Shown here in pieces: positions 16,716-39,374 of a DNA stretch of 64,000 bases. The translations under genes and the position numbers were made by a program. The DNA is from Alphaproteobacteria bacterium (GTDB lineage: Bacteria > Pseudomonadota > Alphaproteobacteria > SMXS01): assembly GCA_016124315.1 (NCBI GenBank), contig WGNW01000088.1:1-64000 (forward strand), read 5' to 3'. Below the pieces are notes generated by a model that ran no database searches, was not told the origin of the DNA, and was given only the letters and a program-made list of their open reading frames with translations. Every line of letters starts with the position of its first letter. Position 1 is the first letter of the stretch.

Positions 16716-18071
16716 ATGCACCTGAAGCTAGTCTGTGGCAGCGAAACCAGGACCCTCGACGAGGGGCAAATGGTTCTCGGTGCGTCCGGCGACTGCGACT
16801 GGATCCTCCACGACGACTATATTTCCGGACGGCACTGCCGGATCGAGCGCGCCGGCGACGGCTACGTGCTGACGGACATCAGCCGGAACGGCGTCTTTCT
16901 CAACGGCGCGGACTCGCGGATCCGGGGCGGCACGGTGCCTCTCGCCAACGGCGACAGCTTCCGGCTCGGCACGCTGGTCGTCCAGGTCACGTTCCAGGAT
17001 GCGGCGCCCGAACCGATCGCCGCCACGTCGCCCCCGCCCGCCGACATCCCCCGGCCGTCCCATTCCGAGCTGCCGCCTATCCTTGCGGGCCGCGCCGAGG
17101 CGCCGCCACCCCCGGCAACGGACGCCGGACGATCCTTCAGCCCCTCCGGGACCGGCAATCCGGCGGCGGCCGACACGGCGCGCAGGACGAGCACGCAGGA
17201 CCCCGGCGCGCAGCTGCGCAGGACCAACATCCGGCTGTCGAGCGTGCTCGGCAACGACAGCGCGCTCGACGCGCCGGTGCCACTGACGTTCAACGAGTCC
17301 CGCAAGCACAGTCGCGACGTGAGCACCAGCCTGAAGAAGCTGGCCGATTTGCTGGACGACTACGGTATCGACCTGCCCGGCACGGCCGCCCAGCCGGCAC
17401 CGGAGTCGGCCCCGGAACCGGCGACGTCCCCTCCTCCCCGGCCAGCATCGGCGGCCCCTCCAGCACCCCGGCAGGACAACGGTTTCCAACCCACGGCGCC
17501 GAGCGAAGGCGACCTGCTGCGCGCCTATCTGGAAGGGGCAGGCCTCCCGCCGGACGCCGCCACCGTCTCCGACCCCGCCGCCCTGCTGCGCCAGCAGGGC
17601 GAACTGATGCGCCAGCTGCTGCAGGGACTGCTGTCGCTGCTGGCGCTGCGCAACCAGGTCAAGCGGGAGTTCCGGGTGCCCGCCACCCAGCTGGGCCCGA
17701 CGGAGAACAACCCGCTCAAGTTCGCCGGGTCGGCCGGCCGTGCCCTGGAGTCCATGGTGGCGCCGGCGCAGCCCGGCTTCCTGACGCCGACCCGCGCCGT
17801 CGCCGACATCTTCGAGGACCTCATCCGGCACGAAGCCGCGATGACCGGCGCGGCCCGCGACGCCCTGTTCGCGGTGGTCGAGACGCTGGCGCCCGAGGCG
17901 ATCAACGACAGCATGAAGGGTCGGGGCTGGTCGCTCTCCAAGGACGCCGCGCTGTGGAAGCGGTACAAGGAGGCCTTCGCCGCCGCCACGGAACGCGGCG
18001 AGGAAAGCACCCTCATCAAACAGTTCCGCCAGGCCTTCGCACATGCCTACATCAAGCATTTCCGGGACTGA
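16716..18071 (+). CDS. tagH: T6SS FHA-domain protein (TagH/ImpI type)
   Basis: A 451-residue cytoplasmic scaffold. The N-terminal FHA domain (about residues 20-90) has the signature ISGRHCRIERAGDGY then SRNGVFLNG, which binds phosphothreonine. A long Pro/Ala-rich linker (about 95-240) leads to a C-terminal domain (about 250-451) typical of T6SS FHA proteins (LRNQVKREFRVPATQLGPTE, ENNPLKF). In the threonine-phosphorylation pathway, FHA proteins bind PpkA-phosphorylated partners (themselves or TssL) to trigger assembly. ATG at 16716 is preceded by GGATGGAAAC. It is the first gene of the plus operon. Confidence 0.9.
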   Translation: MHLKLVCGSETRTLDEGQMVLGASGDCDWILHDDYISGRHCRIERAGDGYVLTDISRNGVFLNGADSRIRGGTVPLANGDSFRLGTLVVQVTFQDAAPEPIAATSPPPADIPRPSHSELPPILAGRAEAPPPPATDAGRSFSPSGTGNPAAADTARRTSTQDPGAQLRRTNIRLSSVLGNDSALDAPVPLTFNESRKHSRDVSTSLKKLADLLDDYGIDLPGTAAQPAPESAPEPATSPPPRPASAAPPAPRQDNGFQPTAPSEGDLLRAYLEGAGLPPDAATVSDPAALLRQQGELMRQLLQGLLSLLALRNQVKREFRVPATQLGPTENNPLKFAGSAGRALESMVAPAQPGFLTPTRAVADIFEDLIRHEAAMTGAARDALFAVVETLAPEAINDSMKGRGWSLSKDAALWKRYKEAFAAATERGEESTLIKQFRQAFAHAYIKHFRD

Positions 18072-18093
18072 GGGCGCCGCCCAAGATTGCCCT

Positions 18094-18121
18094 TTGGAAA
18101 GGTTTCGCCTTTAGCGATAAT
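18094..18121 (+). promoter_or_regulatory. Candidate internal promoter before tssK
   Basis: TTGGAA (18094-18099), 16-bp spacer, GATAAT (18116-18121), in the 76-bp gap between fha and tssK. This is the only notable gap in the plus operon before tagF. The stretch is AT-richer than its surroundings. It would allow tssK-tssL-tssM expression separate from fha. Confidence 0.4.
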
Positions 18122-18147
18122 GACCTGACGGCGGACAGGGGGGTAAC

Positions 18148-19482
18148 GTGTCCTATTCCAACAAAGTGGTCTGGTCCGAGGGCCTGTTCCTGCTGCCGCA
18201 GCACTTCCAGCAGCAGGAGCGCTACCTCGAGAACTATGCCCGGCAGTCCGCCCAGCCGCTGCATCCCGCCGGCTGGGGATTTCAGAAGCTGACGCTCGAC
18301 ACCGGTCTGCTGGAATCGGGCAAGGTGGCGCTCGCGGCATGCAAGGGCATTTTCCGCGACGGCACGCCGTTCTCCGCGCCCGACCTGGCGGCGCTGCCGC
18401 CGGCGCGCGACGTGCCGTCCGATCTGCGCGACCAGATGGTCTATCTGGCGATCCCCGCCCAGCGGGACGGCACCCCGTCCCTGGTCAGCAGGGACCGCGG
18501 CCTGGCTGGCGCCCGCCATGTGGAGCAGGACACCGAGGTCAAGGACTACAATGCCGAAGGCAGCGGCACGGTCCGGAGCATTGGCACCGGTTCGCTGAAG
18601 CTGAGCCTGCTGTTCGGCGGCGAAGACCTGGAGGACTACCAGGTCATCGGCGCCGCCCACATCCAGGAGGTGGGGACCGACAAGCGGGTCAGGCTGTCGG
18701 CCGACTACATCCCACCCTGCCTCGCCGTCGACGCGCCAACCCCGCTCGTCCGGCATCTGGCGGAACTGGACGGGCTGTTCAAGCAGCGGGCGCAGCAGCT
18801 TTCCTTCCGGGCGGCGCAGGGCACCGGCGGCGTGTCCGAGATCGCCAACTTCCTGATGCTGATGGCCATCAACCGGTTCGGGCCGGTCGTACAGCACATG
18901 CTGAACCTGCCGGGCCTCCACCCGGAAACGCTGTACCGCTTCCTGGTTTCCGTCGCCGGGGAACTGTCCACCTTCACCACCATGGACCGCCGGCCGCCGG
19001 ACTTTCCGGTCTACCGGCACGACGACCTGCGGGCCACGTTCGCGCCGGTGATCGCGCTCATCCACAGTGCGCAGACCATGGTCATCGAGGAGGCGGCCAT
19101 CCAGATTCCGCTGGTCCGCTCCCGCTCCGGCATCTATGTCGGCGAGATCACCGACCGCAGCCTGTTCGGCGACTGCGCCTTCGTGCTGGCGGTCGCCTCG
19201 CAGGTCCCGCCCAAGGACCTGGAGGCCGCCTTCCCGGCCCACACGATCATCGGTTCGGTGGAGCAGATCCGCAACCTGGTGGCGGCGCCGGTCCGCGGCG
19301 TGCCGCTGCGGCCGCTCTCGTTCCCGCCCCAGCAGCTGCCGTTCCACAACAACACGGCCTATTTCGGCCTGTCCAAGGACAACGACTACTGGACGGCGCT
19401 GACGCAGTCCGCCGGCATCGCCATCCATGTGGGCAGCAGCTTTCCCGGGATGAACCTTTCGCTCTGGGCGATCAGGGCCTGA
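18148..19482 (+). CDS. tssK: T6SS baseplate protein TssK
   Basis: A 444-residue TssK (ImpJ/VasE) protein. The opening NKVVWSEGLFLLPQHFQQQE is the family hallmark, followed by the shoulder and receptor-binding-like domains (PPARDVPSDLRDQMVYLAIP; YIPPCLAV; EIANFLMLMAINRFGPVVQH) and a C-terminal domain ending with IHVGSSFPGMNLSLWAIRA. TssK trimers join the TssE/F/G wedges to the TssL/TssM membrane complex. The start is GTG at 18148 with a strong AGGGGGG ribosome site. tssL follows after 3 bp. Confidence 0.95.
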   Translation: MSYSNKVVWSEGLFLLPQHFQQQERYLENYARQSAQPLHPAGWGFQKLTLDTGLLESGKVALAACKGIFRDGTPFSAPDLAALPPARDVPSDLRDQMVYLAIPAQRDGTPSLVSRDRGLAGARHVEQDTEVKDYNAEGSGTVRSIGTGSLKLSLLFGGEDLEDYQVIGAAHIQEVGTDKRVRLSADYIPPCLAVDAPTPLVRHLAELDGLFKQRAQQLSFRAAQGTGGVSEIANFLMLMAINRFGPVVQHMLNLPGLHPETLYRFLVSVAGELSTFTTMDRRPPDFPVYRHDDLRATFAPVIALIHSAQTMVIEEAAIQIPLVRSRSGIYVGEITDRSLFGDCAFVLAVASQVPPKDLEAAFPAHTIIGSVEQIRNLVAAPVRGVPLRPLSFPPQQLPFHNNTAYFGLSKDNDYWTALTQSAGIAIHVGSSFPGMNLSLWAIRA

Positions 19483-23800: not shown

Positions 23801-24273
23801 CGCCCGACCTGCCCTCGGGCGCGCTGGGCCTGTTCCAGCAGGCCGACGAAATCCGCAGCGCCTTCTTCCGGCAGGGCGCCCAGGAACCGAAGGTGGAATT
23901 CCAGATCAGCTCGCGGAGCATCGATTCCCGCGCCACCAACGCGACGCTGGTGCTGGGCGGCAAGACCATGGTGTTCCGCCCCAACATCCCGGCCACCTAC
24001 AAGCTGACCTGGCCGTTCGACCCCAACGACGAGGCCTCCTATCTCGTCTTCATCCGCGCCGGCGGCGGCACCACCACGCCGCAGGAGTTCCAGGGCCCCT
24101 GGAGCCTGTTCCGCCTGTTCGCCGGCAACCTGCGCTCCGGCGGCAGCCGCGACCGCTTCGTGCTGCGGCTGGAGCGCGACGGGCTGGTCGCCGAATTCGA
24201 GGTCAAGGCGCTGTCGGTCGACAATCCGTTCGGCCTTCGCCTGGACCGGTTCAGATGTCCGGCGAACCTCTAG
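20821..24273 (+). CDS. tssM: T6SS inner-membrane protein TssM (IcmF)
   Basis: A 1150-residue TssM. Two N-terminal helices (about 5-30 and 38-57), then a cytoplasmic NTPase domain with an intact Walker A GPPGSGKTTW (128-137) and DTAGR further on. A third helix (about 441-465; LVIFGSAAIFLLTAVLLYVS) precedes a long periplasmic region with the IcmF-related and C-terminal domains (ATLVLGGKTMVFRPNIPATY near 1042-1061). It forms the trans-envelope channel with TssL. Normally the C-terminal domain contacts the TssJ lipoprotein, for which no gene is visible here. It starts 3 bp after tssL and overlaps tagF by 19 bp. A very long antisense frame across it is a composition shadow. Confidence 0.95.
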   Translation: MSHRAIRLAAVFLLLVLFCLLFFFLSPYVSIAGAAIFAPVWLRLLIVALILLTWAGLEGYKWMRRGKRDKEMAEGLEHAAGDSRGGGARDDIQEINEKFRRALKMLRQRRFGGSRQRLYELPWYLMIGPPGSGKTTWIRNSGLRFPLAEVFGSDPVQGMGGTRTCDWWFTEEAVILDTAGRFSTQDSDPSVDSATWLGLLGALRRNRRRRPLDGVIVAMSVADLASQPPEKLIERGIKINRRLSEIAEKVGTTVPVYFVFTKTDLVAGFTEYFEDLTADEREQVWGETWPLDRSGDVPDMVGHSIDRLLGRLDERLVARLHAETDPQRDALIHGFPFQFASLKPAIRRFLGEVCRKGPYGDAAILARGVYFSSGTQEGDPFDRILQSVARDLGLPQPVQARARGSSRSFFIGRVLKDVIFREAGLVGNTGFLDRYRTWIQRLVIFGSAAIFLLTAVLLYVSYANNRQLLASLDAKAAGMTEQARAPLPPDAPLFGLLPTLNALRDFPAGFAREDEPTPAWHGLGLYQGDAYGATARDAYADALSGAFVPALMHDVEAVLRSDAEPGRRYQALKLYLMLADRDRFDPAYVTAASVGVLRQRYGALTPEAEAAIQAHAAALGDKRLAAALRPVALDKPLVEQVRRDLTDMDPAVQVYASLSQALADTDIPPWRLRDHVTAAERYFDTEGRQLSVPPLFTRKGYAELFMKQAPAAVHAAAGEGWVLGAGEGRPGAFDERRLLRDVTRLYFQDYRQSWNDLIGSLQLRVPPTQDLRPFVRRLADRDSPLREALKAIVAELDFAAPGADKAAAALKSKLGAAASFMPAGVGSHSDEMDPRKAVSAEFRDLIQLVGGPKPPLDGILDQLGQFSDSLRDMERTGDSGKFQDAVDTLRDDARGRPAPLDAWMLQLADIGHQAFVQDSGERVAGAWAAAADSRCASINGRFPFRPGAREDVNLADFADLFGYGGVLESFFNEHMKPYVDRSGGTWKWRDPSQAPDLPSGALGLFQQADEIRSAFFRQGAQEPKVEFQISSRSIDSRATNATLVLGGKTMVFRPNIPATYKLTWPFDPNDEASYLVFIRAGGGTTTPQEFQGPWSLFRLFAGNLRSGGSRDRFVLRLERDGLVAEFEVKALSVDNPFGLRLDRFRCPANL

Positions 24274-25034
24274 ACGCCGCCGGCCCGGGCTTCTTCGGCA
24301 AGGTGCCGGCGATCGGCGATTTCGTGCGCCGCGGCCTGCCGGGCAGCTTCGTCGAGCCCTGGGACGCCTGGATGCGGGCGCTGCTGCAGTCGGGGACGTC
24401 CCGGCTGGGCGACGACTGGCTGGAAATCTACCTGACCAGCCCGATCTGGCGGTTCGTGCTGCCGCCGGGGACGTGCGGCCCCGAAGCGGTGGCCGGCGTG
24501 ATGGTGCCCAGCATCGATGCCGTGGGACGCTGCTATCCCCTCACCCTCGCCGAACTGGTGCCCGCGGCTTCGGCCGGCGCGCCCGGGATCGTGCGGTCCC
24601 TGCCCTGGTTCGAGGCTCTGGAACAGGCCGCGCTGGGCGCCCTGGCGGAGACCTTCGACCTTGAGCAGTTCGCCGCTGGGGTGGCCGCCATCGGCCCCGT
24701 CGTCGCCGGCGCGCCACCGGCCGCCACGGAGTCCGCTCAGTCTGACCGCCCGGGCGGCGTGGTGGCGGAACTCACCGCCTCGCCGGCGGGCCAGGACGGC
24801 GACGTCTCGGCGCTTTCGGCGGGCCTGTCGCACCATCTGGCTGCGCCCCTCGGCCTTTGGTGGACGATCGCGGGCTCGCAACGCCTGCAGGCGACGAGCC
24901 TGCTGTTGTCCATGTCGCCGGCCGAGCCGGCCGGTCCGGCGCTGTTCGCAGGGCGCGGCCTGGTCGCGGCGAAGCTCCCGGCGCCGCCGGAAGAATCCCC
25001 GACTGCTACCGGTCCCGACGGCGCGCAGCCATGA
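24255..25034 (+). CDS. tagF: T6SS-associated protein TagF (ImpM)
   Basis: A 259-residue TagF-domain protein. Landmarks: GFFGKVPAIGDFVRRGLP (residues 12-29), FVEPWDAWMRALLQSG, SPIWRFVLPPGTCGPEAVAG and a block around SIDAVGRCYPLTL. A low-complexity acidic/Ala-rich section (about 150-180) precedes a C-terminal LGLWWTIAGSQRL segment. TagF is a post-translational repressor of T6SS that in several species acts on FHA, countering PpkA-dependent activation. The ATG at 24255 overlaps the end of tssM by 19 bp, implying coupled translation. The same frame is open far upstream across tssM, but only this part has family character. Confidence 0.9.
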   Translation: MSGEPLDAAGPGFFGKVPAIGDFVRRGLPGSFVEPWDAWMRALLQSGTSRLGDDWLEIYLTSPIWRFVLPPGTCGPEAVAGVMVPSIDAVGRCYPLTLAELVPAASAGAPGIVRSLPWFEALEQAALGALAETFDLEQFAAGVAAIGPVVAGAPPAATESAQSDRPGGVVAELTASPAGQDGDVSALSAGLSHHLAAPLGLWWTIAGSQRLQATSLLLSMSPAEPAGPALFAGRGLVAAKLPAPPEESPTATGPDGAQP

Positions 25035-25062
25035 GACGAAACCCCGAACAGCGGCAACCAGC

Positions 25063-25611
25063 ATGACAACCGATTCCCGCATCGACAGGCTCAAGGATCT
25101 CAACGTGCCCGCCCTCAAGGTGATGGTCATCAACGAGTGGCGCAAGGCCGGGCCCAACACCCTGGTGAAGGTCGTCCCCAAGGAACGGCCGCTCGCCGTC
25201 GACGCGGGCGCCAAGGCGCCGCTCGCCGCCGGCTACGTCACCCAGATCAAGTTCGTCACCGGCGCTTCGCCCGCGGAGATGGAGCGGCGGCTGGGGTTCG
25301 GCGTCAGCAAGTACACCGGCCGGACCATCCTGTTCGGCGGCGCCATCGTCTACCGCCTGCTGCGGCTGCCGACCGCCGAGGAGTTCGACTTCCGGGGCTA
25401 CAGCCAGCTTCCGGACGGCTATTCCACCAGCGACCAGGAATACGCCGACGTTGAGGAGGAGAACCGGAAGATGTATCCGCCGGGAAGCGGCGTTCCCCAG
25501 TGGGAACTCTGCAAGGGGGTCGGCATACCCTGCAAGGAGATCGCCAGCCTCGCCTATCACGAGGTGTTCAAATACCCCACGCCGACGCTGGAATACGGGG
25601 CCGACGGCTGA
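25063..25611 (+). CDS. Unknown T6SS-linked protein after tagF
   Basis: A 182-residue protein I do not recognise. It starts at ATG 25063, 28 bp after tagF, as the last gene of the plus operon. Codon use and GC match the neighbours. Mixed alpha/beta character, no signal peptide, no membrane helix, two cysteines close together (Cys150, Cys157). Notable stretches: TLVKVVPKERPLAVD (33-47), ILFGGAIVYRLLRLPTAEEF (89-108), RGYSQLPDGYSTS (111-123) and an acidic run ADVEEENRK. Its position at the operon end, opposite the VgrG/PAAR cargo genes, suggests an effector, adaptor or accessory factor. The only support for function is context. Confidence 0.75.
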   Translation: MTTDSRIDRLKDLNVPALKVMVINEWRKAGPNTLVKVVPKERPLAVDAGAKAPLAAGYVTQIKFVTGASPAEMERRLGFGVSKYTGRTILFGGAIVYRLLRLPTAEEFDFRGYSQLPDGYSTSDQEYADVEEENRKMYPPGSGVPQWELCKGVGIPCKEIASLAYHEVFKYPTPTLEYGADG

Positions 25612-25641
25612 GAACCCACGGAGCGGCGCGGGCCCCCGGAC

Positions 25642-26256
25642 TCACCGCCAAGTGGCTTGAAGGTCGTTCTCGATCAGACGCCATTCGTTTCCGTGCCGGG
25701 TCCACAGGGACGACGCTCCTGGCTCCAACTCCAGCACGGGGCCGCTGATCATGGTCGTCGCCGCCACCACCCTGAACCCGCACCGCGTGGTGTAGTACTC
25801 GAGCAGGTGGTCGTTTTCCGCGATGAGCCGCACACGGCCGGCATTGCCGTGCTTCTGGGACAAGGTCGCCGCCGCTTCCAGCAGCGTCAGGCCGACGCCC
25901 CATTCGGACGCGTCGCTCAACACATACCGGACGGTCGCGCTGCCCGGCTCCTCGGTCAGGCTGACCACCGCCACGCCGCGAAGGCGATGCAGGTGGAAGA
26001 TCAGATAGGTGCAGTCGTCGTTCATCCTCGCCGGAATGTCCTGGATGAGCCGTTCCGCTGTCTCCAATTTTTCGCCGCTCAAGTGGCTTCTGACCCGGCG
26101 ACACAGCGTTCTCCAGCCCTCCGTGTCATTCATGAACTGCTGGTAGGTCTGTTCATGGACCGGCGGCAGCGAAATCCACACCATCCGTTTTTCGGGCAGC
26201 GGGTACTCATCCGGTTTATCGGGCGGCGGCATACCATCGGGTGGGTTGCTTGACAT
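25642..26256 (-). CDS. GNAT-fold acetyltransferase-like protein at end of T6SS operon
   Basis: A 204-residue protein whose C-terminal half has the GNAT layout: TYLIFHLHRLRGVAVVSLTE (strands beta2-beta4), a stretch around EWGVGLTLLEAAATLSQKHG standing in for the acetyl-CoA loop and following helix, and ENDHLLEYYTTRCGFRVVAA. The canonical Q/R-x-x-G-x-G/A loop is degenerate (SEWGVG). The N-terminus is Pro-rich, followed by a helical region (about 35-75). It is the last gene of the minus T6SS operon, 125 bp after PAAR, and converges with the plus operon across 30 bp. It could be an immunity/modifying protein or an unrelated acyltransferase. Start ATG 26256; a downstream ATG at MPPPDKP is possible. 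Confidence 0.7.
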   Translation of the reverse strand: MSSNPPDGMPPPDKPDEYPLPEKRMVWISLPPVHEQTYQQFMNDTEGWRTLCRRVRSHLSGEKLETAERLIQDIPARMNDDCTYLIFHLHRLRGVAVVSLTEEPGSATVRYVLSDASEWGVGLTLLEAAATLSQKHGNAGRVRLIAENDHLLEYYTTRCGFRVVAATTMISGPVLELEPGASSLWTRHGNEWRLIENDLQATWR

Positions 26257-26381
26257 CTCTCACTCGCGCGAACACGACGAATGGCCCGACGTATGCCAGG
26301 CCGACAACCCCAAGAAGAAGCCTTCCCGATACTCAGTTCGGAACCGCCCACGCCCGGATGGCCCACCCGGTTGCGGAAGAT

Positions 26382-26672
26382 CTAACCCCCGATCAGTACA
26401 TTCGGCATCCCGGCGACGATCACGCCGCCGTGGACGGTCATGTCGCCGACACGGGCCGCGGGCAGGCCGCCGATATAGACGGTCGTCGATCCCTTGGCGA
26501 TGACGTCGGGCGGTCCCGTGCAGGTCGCCTGGTCGGAGACCCGCGCGGCCGGAAGGGACCCGATCAGCACCGTGGGCAAGCAAGGCGGGATGATCGGCCC
26601 GCCCACATGGGGCACCGTCCCGGTCACCATCGGGCAGGTGTGCATGTCGGTAACGCGGGCGGCAGGCGGCAT
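26382..26672 (-). CDS. PAAR-repeat T6SS spike tip protein
   Basis: A 96-residue PAAR protein with the repeats PPAARVTDMHTCP (2-14), LPAARVSDQATC and LPAARVGDMTVHGG, a central GGPIIPPC and the ending GMPNVLIGG. PAAR proteins form the sharp cone on VgrG, with Cys/His ligands binding one metal ion. Length equals the bare domain, so there is no fused effector. It lies downstream of vgrG, a DUF6931-like gene and a hydrophobic orphan in the same operon, implying non-covalent cargo loading. Confidence 0.95.
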   Translation of the reverse strand: MPPAARVTDMHTCPMVTGTVPHVGGPIIPPCLPTVLIGSLPAARVSDQATCTGPPDVIAKGSTTVYIGGLPAARVGDMTVHGGVIVAGMPNVLIGG

Positions 26673-26732
26673 GGTCTCAGCCGAGAATTGGAATCGTCGG
26701 AGTATAGGGCATGGCGGCGGCGGCGTTCACTT

Positions 26733-27278
26733 TCACACGACCGTTCGCCGGGTCGGCCAACCCGCGACGAGCGTCGGCGGCGCACCCCCGGAACCGATGT
26801 CGGCGACGAGCTGCGTGAACTTCCTGTCGGCGCTCTTCTGGAAGTCCATCCGGCTGACATAGGAGGATCTGACGTTGTAGCTGCTCGCCTGGGTTCGGAT
26901 GTTCTCGAGATCGTTTTCGGCGGTCAGCCAGTCGATCAACTTGTCGGACCAGCCGAGATAGGCCTCGTCCGTGGCATAGATCGCGGCCCCCAGCAGACGC
27001 CCGATATAGTAGGATGCGAGGACGCCGCCGGCCATGGACGCGAGTTCCCCCAGGGTGGCCGCCCCGATCGCCGTCCCCAGGGACATTGTCCGCGCAACCG
27101 CGATCAGTTGCGCGACAGTGATGGCGTCCTTCGCGGCAACGGTGATCTTCAGCGCGTTGTACAGCGCCCCGATGCTGCTTATGGCAACAGCCGCCGACGT
27201 ATAGAGGCTTGCCGGTACCGGCATCGCGGGTGGAGACGCCATGCTCTCTTCGAAATAGTCGGACCACGTCTTCGTCAT
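26733..27278 (-). CDS. Hydrophobic orphan, candidate T6SS cargo
   Basis: A 181-residue protein without recognised family. A strong ribosome site (GGAAGGG) precedes ATG 27278. Residues 25-47 and 53-104 form Ala/Gly-rich hydrophobic segments (GTAIGAATLGELASMAGGVL at 68-87), enough for two to three membrane-inserting helices with small-residue packing. The polar C-terminal third (SDKLIDWLTAENDLENIRTQ, 111-130) ends in Gly/Pro- and Arg-rich residues. There is no signal peptide. It sits between the DUF6931-like gene and PAAR, the usual slot for an effector. A membrane-active toxin is a reasonable inference, but no immunity gene is obvious unless one of the neighbours serves. Confidence 0.75.
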   Translation of the reverse strand: MTKTWSDYFEESMASPPAMPVPASLYTSAAVAISSIGALYNALKITVAAKDAITVAQLIAVARTMSLGTAIGAATLGELASMAGGVLASYYIGRLLGAAIYATDEAYLGWSDKLIDWLTAENDLENIRTQASSYNVRSSYVSRMDFQKSADRKFTQLVADIGSGGAPPTLVAGWPTRRTVV

Positions 27279-27334
27279 CGCATTCCCTTCCGATTGAGGG
27301 TTCCCTTCCTTCCGAATCCCGGCGAACCCGCGAC

Positions 27335-27835
27335 CTAGCCGGATCCGCTCAGCAGCACCGCCATCGCCACGGCGATCCCCGTGAGATGCTCGGGCGGCGG
27401 CACCGGAGTGTCGTCGCCCCGTACCATCGAACCGCCGCTCCAGGCGACCGCGTAGGCCAGCCAGACCGAAGGAGTCTGCGGATCGACGTCGTCGACGCAA
27501 TCCAGCGCGGCGCAGCGCGCCTGCTCTCCCGGCGCCACGACCCACGCATAGACGGCATGGAGCGCACCCATGTCGAGCGGCGAGACCGGCGTATCGGGCT
27601 TGAGTCCGCCTCGCACGAGTTCATAGCCCCAGCGGATCGCATCCTCCTTGGGAAGCGCCTGCGCCGAGAAGCGAATGGCCGCCTCTTCCTGCCCTGCCGA
27701 CCACAGGCGCGCCGCATAGCCCGAGGCGGACATGTCCGGCTCCAGCAGCGCGGTGTGCTCCGCTTCCATGCCGGCGCGCCGACATGCCTCACGGATCTGC
27801 TCGGCAGTGAGGTCGGGCAGGTTCGGCAGAGTCAT
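27335..27835 (-). CDS. Small T6SS-associated protein, DUF6931-like
   Basis: A 166-residue soluble protein. LTAEQIREACRRAGMEAEHT, followed by SGYAARLWSAGQEEAAIRFS and ALPKEDAIRWGYELV, resembles the DUF6931 proteins found beside vgrG in T6SS loci (recognition from memory, moderate certainty). A Trp/Ala-rich helical centre follows (HAVYAWV, SVWLAYAVAWSGG). It begins 7 bases after the vgrG stop. GTG-GTG-ATG triplets occur in a row, and ATG 27835 is chosen because GAGG lies five bases upstream. Translational coupling to vgrG suggests a cargo adaptor or chaperone. Function is undetermined. Confidence 0.75.
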   Translation of the reverse strand: MTLPNLPDLTAEQIREACRRAGMEAEHTALLEPDMSASGYAARLWSAGQEEAAIRFSAQALPKEDAIRWGYELVRGGLKPDTPVSPLDMGALHAVYAWVVAPGEQARCAALDCVDDVDPQTPSVWLAYAVAWSGGSMVRGDDTPVPPPEHLTGIAVAMAVLLSGSG

Positions 27836-27842
27836 CACCACC

Positions 27843-29678
27843 TCAGTTGATCTTGACGACGCCGCCGCGCGCGGTGAGCACCGCGTCGGCGGAGATGCTG
27901 ACCATGGGCGCCGACTGCTGGATCTTGCCGGTTCCCTGGATGGTGACGGTCGCCGCCTTGATGGTGATCGACATGGGATCGATCTTGATGCTGCTGGCGC
28001 CGACCTTCAGTTCGATGGACTGCTTGGCCTCCTCGCTGATCTTGCCCATGGAGACGCGGATCGTCCGGTTGCCATTGGTGATGGTGATGCTCTGGTCGTT
28101 CTTCACCTCGATCGTCTGCTCGTTCTCCACCTTCAGGCCGTCGTCGTGCTCGACCCGCCGGTTGAAGTCCTTCTGGGCGTGGAAATAGACTTCCTCGCTG
28201 CCGGGCTTGTCCTCGAAGCGCAGCTCGTTGAAGTCCTCCGTCCCGCCCTTCTCGCTGCGGGTCTTCACGCCGCTGCGGGTCTTGGCGCCGGCCAGGGCAT
28301 AGGGCGGCATCTGCTCGGCGTTGTAGACCGAGCCGATCACCAGCGGCCGGTCCGGGTCGCCGTCGAGGAAGCTGACCACCACCTCCTGGCCGACCCGGGG
28401 CCAGAAGAACGCGCCCCAGTTCTTGCCGGCCCAGCCCTGGGCGACCCGGATCCAGCAGGAGCTCTTCTCGTCGTTCTTGCCGTAGCGATCCCAGTGGAAC
28501 TGCACCTTTATCCGACCGTACTTGTCGACCAGGATGTCGTCGCCCGACGCACCGGTGACGATCGCCGTCTGGCTGCCCGGTATCCGCGGCTTCGGCGTCT
28601 GCCGCGGCGGCCGGAACAGCACCTTCGACGGCATGCACTGGAAACTGTTGGAATAGCCCGTCTCGCCGCCGGGACCGCCGGGCACGTAGCTGCCTTCCGC
28701 GACCTGGTGGCTGATCCGCGTCACCACGAATTCCTGGCGGTCGTCCACCGGGAAGTCGGTGCTGCGGAACTGGAAGGTGCGGGCCGGCGCCAGCGTGCGG
28801 CAGCCGCCCGCGCCTTCGGCGGTGTCGTAGCCCGCCTCCTCCTCTTCCATGCGGATCTTGGCCAAGTCGCGCCCTGGGCCCTTGGCGGCATAGCGGCCGG
28901 GATATTCGAACCGGGTGAAATTGTCGGCGTTGCGCAGCCGCACGATGCTGGTGACCGCGGCGTTGAGCTTCTCCGACGGGGTCTCGAAGTTGAAGTCGGT
29001 ATGCTCGAAGCGGCCGGTCCTGAAGGCGTGGCGGTGCTCCCAGGCCCACAGATGGTCGCCCGTCTGCGCCCCCGCCGAGCCGCCGGTGTATTCGATCTCG
29101 GCTTCGTCGGCCTTCTTGTATGCCGAGAGGCCGTCGGCGAGGACCATGACATGCTGGTCCTTCTCATGACGGAAGAAGTAGAAGATGCCTTCCTCCTCCA
29201 TCAGGCGCGACACGAAGTCGAAATCGGACTCCTGCCACTGGACGCAATATTCCCGGACCGTGGCGCCGCCCTTGATGCCGGACAGGTCGGCGTGGCTGCC
29301 GAAGCCCTTGTCGCGGAACACCTGCTGGATGATGTTCTTCGCGGTCATGTTCTGGAAGATGCGGGAGTTGCGCTCCAGGCCGAGAAACCACAGCCAGGGC
29401 ACGATGCGCAGGCGGAAGCTGCCCAGCCGGTCATGCATGGCCACCGCGTAGCCGTGGAAATGCCGCTCGCCGCCGTCCTTCAGCGTCAGGTCGCAGCCGA
29501 CGGGATGGCCGACGATGTCGGACGGCGCCACCTTGGGTACCTGCAGGAATCCCTCGAGTTCCATGTCGAAGGGCATGGAAAGCCCTTCCTCCACGGAAAG
29601 GTTGCGCGCCGCCAGGACATCCTCGCCCAGCGGCGTGCGAACCTTGAGAATTCTCGTGTCCTGGTCGAAATCGGCCAC
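27843..29678 (-). CDS. tssI: T6SS spike protein VgrG (TssI)
   Basis: A 611-residue VgrG. The N-terminal gp27-like part (about 1-380) includes SFRLRIVPWLWFLGLERNSR, IFQNMTAKNIIQQVF and WQESDFDFVSRLMEEEGIFY. It is followed by the gp5-like OB domain (VDKYGRIKVQFHWDRYGK, CWIRVAQGWAGKNWG) and a short beta-helix of repeated strands to the end. There is no C-terminal extension, so this VgrG is not itself an evolved effector and must carry cargo through PAAR or adaptors. Start GTG 29678. It lies 92 bp after hcp. Confidence 0.96.
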   Translation of the reverse strand: MADFDQDTRILKVRTPLGEDVLAARNLSVEEGLSMPFDMELEGFLQVPKVAPSDIVGHPVGCDLTLKDGGERHFHGYAVAMHDRLGSFRLRIVPWLWFLGLERNSRIFQNMTAKNIIQQVFRDKGFGSHADLSGIKGGATVREYCVQWQESDFDFVSRLMEEEGIFYFFRHEKDQHVMVLADGLSAYKKADEAEIEYTGGSAGAQTGDHLWAWEHRHAFRTGRFEHTDFNFETPSEKLNAAVTSIVRLRNADNFTRFEYPGRYAAKGPGRDLAKIRMEEEEAGYDTAEGAGGCRTLAPARTFQFRSTDFPVDDRQEFVVTRISHQVAEGSYVPGGPGGETGYSNSFQCMPSKVLFRPPRQTPKPRIPGSQTAIVTGASGDDILVDKYGRIKVQFHWDRYGKNDEKSSCWIRVAQGWAGKNWGAFFWPRVGQEVVVSFLDGDPDRPLVIGSVYNAEQMPPYALAGAKTRSGVKTRSEKGGTEDFNELRFEDKPGSEEVYFHAQKDFNRRVEHDDGLKVENEQTIEVKNDQSITITNGNRTIRVSMGKISEEAKQSIELKVGASSIKIDPMSITIKAATVTIQGTGKIQQSAPMVSISADAVLTARGGVVKIN

Positions 29679-29770
29679 CGGCAGCTCATCCCAGCGCGCG
29701 GCCGGCCGGCCGCGTCTTCACGACGGGGTCCGAGCCGGCGGAACGCTTTGCGGCCACGAACGCCTTCCGG

Positions 29771-30244
29771 CTACATCTTCACGCCCTTCTGGATGTCGTA
29801 GCCGGCCGGCACCGGATTGCCCGCCTTGTTGTTCTTATCGAACGGCGTGTACTTCATCATGATCTTGGCGAAGCTCATGCTGATGGTTTCGACCGGGTCG
29901 CCCGAGCCGCCGCCAGACACCGAGTAGCCGGTCAGCAGACAGTCCTCGAGTTCGTATTCCAGGTATGTGGCCAGCTGTTCGCTCGACCGCACGAAGTGAA
30001 CCTGCACCTTCTTGCCCGTGCCGACGCAGGTTTCCGCGAACAGCTTCGGCGAGGACAGATCGAGCTGCTTGGTGACGGTGACTTCGCTCAGGGACGGCTT
30101 CGAAACGGACCGCTCCTTGCCGCCACCCGTTTCGATCATCGCGCTGCGGCCGACGCCGAAGCTGAATGAATCCGCCTCGATCCATTTCTCATGGCCCTTG
30201 GCAGTCACGATCCCGTCTATGCCGTCTATCTTCAGGTAGATCAC
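29771..30244 (-). CDS. tssD: T6SS tube protein Hcp (TssD)
   Basis: A 157-residue Hcp. The family beta-barrel starts IYLKIDGIDGIVTAKGHEKW and continues through SFSFGVGR, TVTKQLDLSSPKLFAETC, YLEYELEDCLLTGYSVSGGG and ETISMSFAKIMMKYTPFD. Hexamers stack into the tube that is fired through the sheath. The start is GTG 30244 with GGAG eight bases upstream. The gap to tssH (97 bp) is one of the largest within the operon, compatible with separate or enhanced expression of this abundant protein, although no strong promoter is visible. Confidence 0.96.
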   Translation of the reverse strand: MIYLKIDGIDGIVTAKGHEKWIEADSFSFGVGRSAMIETGGGKERSVSKPSLSEVTVTKQLDLSSPKLFAETCVGTGKKVQVHFVRSSEQLATYLEYELEDCLLTGYSVSGGGSGDPVETISMSFAKIMMKYTPFDKNNKAGNPVPAGYDIQKGVKM

Positions 30245-30341
30245 GTTCGTTCTCCGTTACCCGTGTTACTTCATCTTTCGACATTCATGGGGAGTCAATT
30301 TCGTGAACAGCCTGTCGTCCCCTCGCCGACACTTTCCCCGC

Positions 30342-37880: not shown

Positions 37881-39374
37881 TCAGGACTTCTTCGGAATCT
37901 CCGCCACGAGTTGGAGCGATGCGTTCAGCTCTTCCATCTGCAGCCAGGGCTGCATCTGCAGCACGGCGTCATAGGCGCCGGGCTTGCCCGGGATAGGCTT
38001 CACCTGGACCTCGGCCGAGCGCAGCGGATAGCGGGCCTTGATCTCGGGCCCGGTGTCCTTGTTGCTGTTGACGTAGGTCTTGATCCAGTTGTTCAGCCAG
38101 CGCTCGCAGTCGTCGACCTCCATGAAGGAGCCGATCTTGTCGCGCGCCATCACCTTCACGTAGTGGCCGAAGCGGGAGGCCGCCATGATGTAGGGCAGCC
38201 GGGTCGAGATGGCGTAGTCCTCGGTCTTGGCCACGTCGGTGCGGAACACCTTGGGACGCTGCACCGACTGCCCGCCCATGAACACCGCGTAGTCGGAGTT
38301 CTTGTAGTGCAGCAGCGGCAGGAAGCCGAGGTCGCTGAGCTCCTTCTCGCGCCGGTCGGTGATGCCGATCTCGGTGGGGCACTTCATGTCGACATCGCCG
38401 TCGTCGCTGACGAAGGTGTGCACCGGCAGGTTCTCGACCTTGCCGCCGTTCTCCAGACCACGGATCGCCGTGCAGAACCCGGTCTCGGCGAAGGCGCGCG
38501 TCAGGTTGGCGCCCATCACGTAGGAGGCGTTCATCCAGCAATAGTCGTCATGCTCCATGGCCTTGGGATTGCCGGCCACGTCGAAGCCGGCTTCCTCGAA
38601 GTCGAACTCGTCGATCTTCAGGGTGTTGCGGCCGTAGGGCAGGCGCGCCAGCACCCGCGGCATCACCAGCGACACGTAGCGCGAATCCTCCATGTCGCGG
38701 AAGCTGCGCCACTTGGCGTAGGAGGCGGTCTGGAAACCCTTCGCCAGGTCGCGGACCTTGGTCATGTCGCTCCACTTCTCCAGGTCGAAGAGCTGGGGCG
38801 ATGCGGCGGTGATGAAGGGGCAGAGCGAGGCGGCGCCGATGCCCGCCATGTTCTGCAGGAACTCGATGTCCTCCGGGTTGTTGGTGACCTCGTAGTCGCC
38901 GATCAGCGCGCCGTACGGCTCGCCGCCGGCGGTGCCGAACTCGTCCTCGTAGAGCCGCTTGAACAGGTCGCTCTGGTCGAAATCGAGCGCCTTGGACAGA
39001 TCCCTCTGCACCTCGCGCTTGCTGGCGTGGAGCATGCGGATCTTCAGCGACGTGCTGGTCTCGCTGTTCATCACCAGGTGATTGAGGCCGCGCCACGAGC
39101 CTTCCAGCGCCTTGAATTCGGGGGCGTGCATCACTTCGGACAGCTGGTCCGACACCACCGAATCCAGCGCCTTGATGGCGTTCTGCAGGGTCACGACGAC
39201 GTTCTTGTCGAAGCTGACCGTCCCCTTCAGCGCCTCTTCCGTCAGCGCCTTGATGAGCCCCTTGGCCTCGTCCGGCGCGGTCATCGGCGTGACGCCGATC
39301 ACCTGGTCGAGCAGGCTCGCCTCGGTCGTGGTGACCTCGGCGGCCGCTTCCGCCGCCTTGCGTTCCTCGGCCAT
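37881..39374 (-). CDS. tssC: T6SS sheath large subunit TssC
   Basis: A 497-residue TssC (VipB/ImpC). Family landmarks: [75 protein letters not shown] and the end [20 protein letters not shown]. It co-assembles with TssB into the contractile sheath and supplies the ClpV-linked surface. TssB stop and ATG overlap as TGATG at 39374; a GTG one codon earlier is an alternative start. Confidence 0.96.

Follow-up and report, generated by a model that had tools for sequence, protein, structure and literature searches.

How an effector is matched to a VgrG-PAAR spike is an open question of the T6SS field, and several accessory families have been explained only recently. Among the known systems closest to the locus described here, the DUF2169 (TvpA) chaperones accompany VgrG and tips of the DUF4150/PIPY type; their co-occurrence with the spike is described as strict, and a working spike is reported to require them (PMC11883445; PMC13373197), and canonical PAAR proteins are reported to bind VgrG unaided (PMC11883445). 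On the cargo side, Ssp6 and Ssp4 of Serratia are helical, membrane-directed proteins belonging to no recognisable family, which are encoded away from vgrG and PAAR genes and have adjacent membrane immunity proteins, Sip6 and Sip4 (PMC6889166; PMC12669606). Adjacency to vgrG does not by itself make an effector, since the Serratia protein SMDB11_2246, whose gene adjoins vgrG1, is reported to have been tested and excluded as such (PMC13373197). The SsdAI-type all-helical immunity proteins and DUF416 are also listed among the closest known systems, an Imm-5/SsdAI-like immunity fold being considered for DUF6931.

The locus reported here lies in the window, i.e. the whole stretch of alphaproteobacterial DNA that was analysed (64,000 nucleotides), within a T6SS cluster extending from about 16.7 to 47 kb. 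In this cluster, FHA, TagF, a VipB sheath protein, ImpA_N, a protein kinase and a PP2C phosphatase were confirmed by profile, the remaining T6SS labels being assigned by eye. On the minus strand, the tip operon reads vgrG, DUF6931, an orphan gene here called HYDRO, PAAR and a GNAT-like gene (Table 1). The order of the first four genes and the coordinates from DUF6931 to PAAR had already been given by a first-pass annotation of the DNA and hold when checked against the sequence, the open reading frames and the profile matches; its description of an unfused VgrG and PAAR in a genuine T6SS spike operon is likewise confirmed, the domain profiles showing spike or tip domains only and neither protein carrying a fused effector domain (VgrG has no C-terminal extension), and the gene that it called DUF6931-like scores well over the cut-off of PF22011. 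The TGA of vgrG and the ATG of DUF6931 are separated by 7 nt and a GAGGTG spans the stop, so that the translational coupling claimed for the two genes is plausible on the basis of the sequence. The window PAAR is 73% identical to the PAAR of locus L034, which directly follows DUF6931 there. Searching with the window VgrG recovered a single VgrG in the source genome, a draft of 112 contigs that is 84.1% complete, and therefore any cargo loaded on a VgrG spike would depend on that protein.

Table 1. Genes of the T6SS tip operon and its 3' neighbourhood in the window.
Feature	Coordinates	Strand	Description
vgrG	27843-29678	-	611 aa, spike domains only; TIGR03361 (E 3.5e-182), PF05954, PF04717, PF22178
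DUF6931 gene	27335-27835	-	166 aa; PF22011 (E 2.3e-33, 115.8 bits vs cut-off 27)
HYDRO (orphan)	26733-27278	-	181 aa, Ala-rich; hydrophobic at about residues 22-103, hydrophilic C-terminus
PAAR	26382-26672	-	96 aa, canonical tip protein; PF05488 (E 2.6e-24, 85.7 bits vs cut-off 27)
GNAT-like gene	25642-26256	-	204 aa, 3' of PAAR on the same strand; PF13673 (E 0.057, below cut-off); assigned by eye
182-aa protein gene, no family	25063-25611	+	follows tagF and converges on the GNAT-like gene

Elsewhere in the cluster, the VipB-type sheath gene (PF05943, 36359-37873) adjoins a gene labelled TssC (37881-39374), and two consecutive genes for the sheath large subunit are also annotated in this way in Azospirillum and Aureimonas plasmids. 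The interval between FHA and tssK (18071-18148) is too short for a tssJ gene. None of nine genomes from its genus or family gave a VgrG match, so that the T6SS cluster probably arrived by transfer, or else the draft genome holds foreign DNA. The same genome encodes a second contractile system (L066, 2741-12405), composed of a sheath, a gp19-type tube, a short VgrG-like hub, a PAAR protein 65% identical to that of the window, gp25 and baseplate J-like proteins, which resembles an extracellular injection system or a phage tail.

The arrangement vgrG-DUF6931-PAAR is a conserved trio into which HYDRO is inserted only in the window genome. An alignment scan of genome contigs for DUF6931 yielded 302 relatives, the best 80 of which were kept as named loci; some of them (e.g. 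L036 and L076) duplicate genomes of the G set, and the trio counts use profile hits, because the simple gene caller missed DUF6931 in some of these loci. In these best 80 of 302 loci, which span several phyla, DUF6931 is immediately preceded by vgrG in 71, and PAAR starts at most 80 nt from the DUF6931 stop in 59. The other 21 comprise 2 loci with PAAR further away, 15 with no same-strand PAAR and 4 that cannot be judged, the locus ending within 600 nt of DUF6931. Twelve further loci have vgrG upstream in 11 cases; PAAR follows at most 80 nt away in three of the twelve and at a long distance in one. Wherever PAAR follows on the same strand (61 of the 80 and 4 of the 12, i.e. 65 loci), the gap after DUF6931 is of -4 to 233 nt in 64, the only exception being L037, whose 3036-nt gap holds an Amidase_2 gene and FHA. 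The corresponding gap of the window is 659 nt and is occupied by HYDRO.

DUF6931 genes labelled "hypothetical protein" were also found in T6SS clusters of plasmid records from Sphingomonas, Azospirillum, Aureimonas and Leisingera, and in that of a Vibrio crassostreae plasmid, with PAAR directly after. A DUF6931 match occurs in 15 of 385 genomes from the class and exceeds the cut-off in 14; a VgrG match is present in all 14 DUF6931-bearing genomes examined as against 11 of 46 others, a comparison set that includes six genomes chosen for their PAAR. The trio is not universal, as 9 of the 80 loci have no vgrG directly upstream and 15 have no same-strand PAAR in the stretch examined. Seven loci from Methylomonas and others (L081-L086, L088) have DUF6931 and PAAR without vgrG directly upstream and, in three of them (L082, L085, L086), a kinase-like gene precedes DUF6931 and vgrG was called downstream. 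In two genomes of one family (L046, 1876-16389; L047, 6570-14685), repeated cassettes associate an OB-domain VgrG-like protein, a protein of 130-150 aa that has a single hydrophobic segment and a conserved tail, and a DUF6931 protein of 380-410 aa; a hydrophobic protein beside DUF6931 parallels HYDRO by arrangement, kinship between the two not being implied.

DUF6931 is thus a widespread VgrG-PAAR-linked family and a firmer lead than HYDRO. Like DUF2169, it is an accessory gene tied to a vgrG/tip pair; unlike DUF2169 systems, it is paired with canonical PAAR (PF05488) and has no DUF2169 match, either in the window protein (E ≤ 10) or in 66 members (E ≤ 1, among the 25 of 27 matching families listed). 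DUF6931 is the sole Pfam match of the window protein at E ≤ 10, with no known adaptor family, and the gene after vgrG is a member of none of DUF4123, DUF2169 and DUF1795; among the matches listed for the 66 aligned members (same families and threshold), no known adaptor family appears, and the literature searched contains no paper that mentions DUF6931. The first-pass annotation had seen in DUF6931 a possible adaptor for HYDRO. A role dedicated to HYDRO is not supported, since in the majority of the 80 loci DUF6931 separates vgrG from PAAR, and none of these loci has a HYDRO match; the pair does not co-occur beyond the source genome.

The DUF6931 protein of the window is itself an aberrant member of the family. 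A full-length relative is confidently predicted as an all-helical structure and, according to the alignment and to this model, the window protein ends 19 residues after the VPPP motif, before the last helix of the family. It also has IRW where other members have VWW, a motif present in 91 of 92 other members, a count that is biased, as the pattern used to find 80 of these 92 requires VWW; the 12 members found by profile have VWW in 11 cases and IWW in one (L043).

HYDRO is probably a real gene. Its frame has the highest codon score of the six (0.16 per codon, the next frame reaching 0.02), the DUF6931, PAAR and GNAT-like genes scoring 0.07-0.15 per codon; its GC content by codon position is 0.56/0.53/0.83 and an SD-like GGAAGGG precedes its ATG. 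The length of the frame is no proof of a gene, because an antisense ORF of 365 aa crosses it, and long antisense ORFs are common in the DNA of the window. The simple gene caller picked an antisense ORF of 56 aa (27034-27204) in place of HYDRO; this ORF has a hydrophobic segment (mean 1.92) and is probably a shadow ORF.

The HYDRO protein is hydrophobic and probably helical, with no obvious signal peptide by eye; its single-sequence structure model has a mean pLDDT of 36.2 and is unusable. The usual transmembrane threshold of the 19-residue Kyte-Doolittle mean is 1.6. The best value for HYDRO is 1.44, which is exceeded by 19 of the 49 called genes of the window. Membrane-inserting segments had been ascribed to this protein: the hydrophobic stretch does exist, but its hydropathy is that of an only moderately hydrophobic protein and the membrane-inserting label is weak. 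Screening for an immunity candidate (ORFs of at least 35 aa with a segment of at least 1.8, positions 24200-30300) returned only five ORFs, all antisense to called genes and one of them (27034-27204) to HYDRO itself; no strongly hydrophobic gene was found on the sense strand with this filter, which would miss weaker membrane proteins.

The claim that HYDRO matches no family stands, as neither a curated family nor a convincing relative emerged from the profile, PDB and genome searches. Briefly, HYDRO has no row in Pfam at E ≤ 10 and none in PADLOC, sub-threshold matches only in NCBIfam (mevalonate kinase, 16.4 bits vs a cut-off of 403) and in PHROG (PHROG 12278, E 0.023), and a best E of 0.31 against PDB sequences. 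Genome searches returned one other match in its own genome (E 0.105), one in 96 relatives (E 0.0049, with internal stops) and, with E ≤ 0.05 as the limit, 31 beside itself in 385 genomes from the class, against some 19 expected by chance. The best of the 31 has an E of 9.4e-4; four of the loci were inspected by eye and no T6SS gene was recognised. Pattern scans of genome and viral contigs, which are sensitive to close relatives only, and searches of plasmids and phages gave no convincing relative, and tblastn at E ≤ 1 against the loci collected, among them the 80 with DUF6931, matched HYDRO only in the window itself. The searches for distant relatives covered few genomes, at most 385 at a time.

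Putative cargo genes adjoin the trio in other genomes. After PAAR, 106 genes were called in the 80 loci, of which 39 were not T6SS core by BLAST and 36 of these complete; 28 of the complete ones, the L037 amidase and three window proteins made up the 32 proteins scanned. The families found were Lipase_3 (6), DUF6795 (6), DUF6861 with Endonuclea_NS_2 (2) and Amidase_2 (1); five of the 32 are TssJ lipoproteins, i.e. core genes missed by the BLAST references, and others (GH127, a transporter, NIPSNAP, a methyltransferase) are apparently unrelated to secretion. The Lipase_3, DUF6795 and DUF6861-nuclease genes lie downstream of PAAR, and the Amidase_2 gene of L037 lies between DUF6931 and FHA/PAAR. 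In L091, L124 and L139, the trio is followed by a DUF6795 gene and then by a Lipase_3 gene, which is likely a lipase effector with a small partner.

The DUF6861-nuclease proteins (Singulisphaera, L106 and L108) share with HYDRO the trio operon and a hydrophobic helical region (by eye) and differ from it by their nuclease domain and by a gene placed after PAAR. Membership of HYDRO in DUF6861 was considered and rejected, as it has no Pfam match at E ≤ 10 and its best BLASTP E to a DUF6861-nuclease protein is 3.0; DUF6861 exceeds its cut-off in none of 299 genomes of the phylum. Since effector-type genes adjoin the trio elsewhere, a cargo role is plausible for HYDRO or for the GNAT-like protein, by position only.

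The explanation that we favour, with a probability of roughly 45%, is that of a trio tip operon with an inserted, lineage-specific HYDRO, in which DUF6931 would serve as a general spike helper and HYDRO as a putative cargo of this spike. DUF6931 would act in the cytosol on VgrG-PAAR spikes in general, as an assembly chaperone or common adaptor rather than as an adaptor of HYDRO, a role suggested by its position and by its positional analogy with DUF2169; HYDRO would travel with the spike, its Ala/Gly-rich helices packed against the tip, and would act in the recipient cell, a membrane action being a guess. Of the adaptor-effector-tip module proposed by the first-pass annotation, the orphan in an effector-type position is thus retained; the dedicated adaptor and the co-occurrence of the pair are not, and no membrane immunity gene was seen. 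That reading as a whole is partly supported, and its adaptor half is replaced by the broader one of a general DUF6931 helper. Among the points against the favoured explanation, the co-occurrence of HYDRO with the spike rests on one genome, adjacency to vgrG is no proof of an effector, the trio is not universal, and none of the neighbouring genes can be singled out as encoding an immunity protein.

A more far-reaching version, possible but in our view rather unlikely, is that DUF6931 is an unrecognised factor which assembles canonical VgrG-PAAR spikes or serves them as a common adaptor, and which is conserved widely, in phyla ranging from Pseudomonadota to Planctomycetota, Acidobacteriota and Nitrospirota; it would here be deprived of its last helix, HYDRO having been inserted before PAAR as cargo in the vacated site or as a replacement part.

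The replacement part can be conceived more narrowly, HYDRO being a spike accessory and not cargo, which would supply in trans the last helix and tail missing from the truncated DUF6931 and which may derive from a copy of DUF6931, namely from its C-terminal half enlarged by a helical insertion. The local DUF6931 indeed stops before the last helix, HYDRO starts 56 nt later and its ends resemble the C-terminal half of DUF6931: the N-terminal block is equalled by 1 of 348 other proteins, the tail block, when placed near the C-terminus, by 2 of 348, and both by 1 of 5000 shuffles, these blocks having been picked after the likeness was noticed. However, their scores are far under those of members (-8.7 vs a median of 81, and 1.0 vs 40), the tail block at any position is equalled by 6.3% of the 348 proteins, and HMMER gives 2.0 bits with the full DUF6931 profile and 5.0 bits with the C-terminal one, values equalled by 23 and 4 of 1759 unrelated pieces, respectively; we therefore regard this accessory role as unlikely.

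To the same extent we doubt that HYDRO is an antibacterial pore former of the Ssp6/Ssp4 type, which would be carried by the spike to the periplasm and would depolarise the inner membrane on insertion of its helices. Small helical family-less T6SS effectors that form pores have been described (PMC6889166; PMC12669606), and HYDRO, which likewise has no family and is hydrophobic and probably helical, combines a hydrophobic stretch of about 80 residues without obvious signal peptide and a place in the spike operon. The likeness is by description only: HYDRO is less hydrophobic than Ssp6 and Ssp4, under the usual transmembrane threshold, its structure model is of no help, and no partner comparable to Sip6 or Sip4 is in view, the strongly hydrophobic ORFs nearby being all antisense; unlike HYDRO, these effectors are not encoded in a spike operon.

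That HYDRO is no gene at all, or an ORF that has degenerated or lost its function while the tip operon decays, would account for the lack of relatives in any search, for the truncation and motif loss of the adjoining DUF6931 and, given the frequency of long antisense ORFs in the window, for the frame itself; this appears improbable in view of its codon score, third-position GC and SD-like site, and of a vgrG and a PAAR that appear intact. Finally, we consider it least probable that the cargo is the GNAT-like protein or the convergent 182-aa protein, with HYDRO loading it or unrelated to it: the position after PAAR does hold lipase and nuclease genes in other trio loci, but the GNAT match is below the Pfam cut-off, neither protein matched a toxin family or had informative relatives (the 182-aa protein none in 116 genomes), and no relative was found beside a T6SS.

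The role of DUF6931 is directly testable, given its link to vgrG and PAAR over several phyla, a confident model and its absence from the literature searched. Should neither a helper role for DUF6931 nor a cargo role for HYDRO hold, the window would contain an ordinary T6SS cluster in which a single gene has no assigned role. If DUF6931 is indeed a general helper of VgrG-PAAR spikes, HYDRO would be either a new spike effector or an example of an altered helper.
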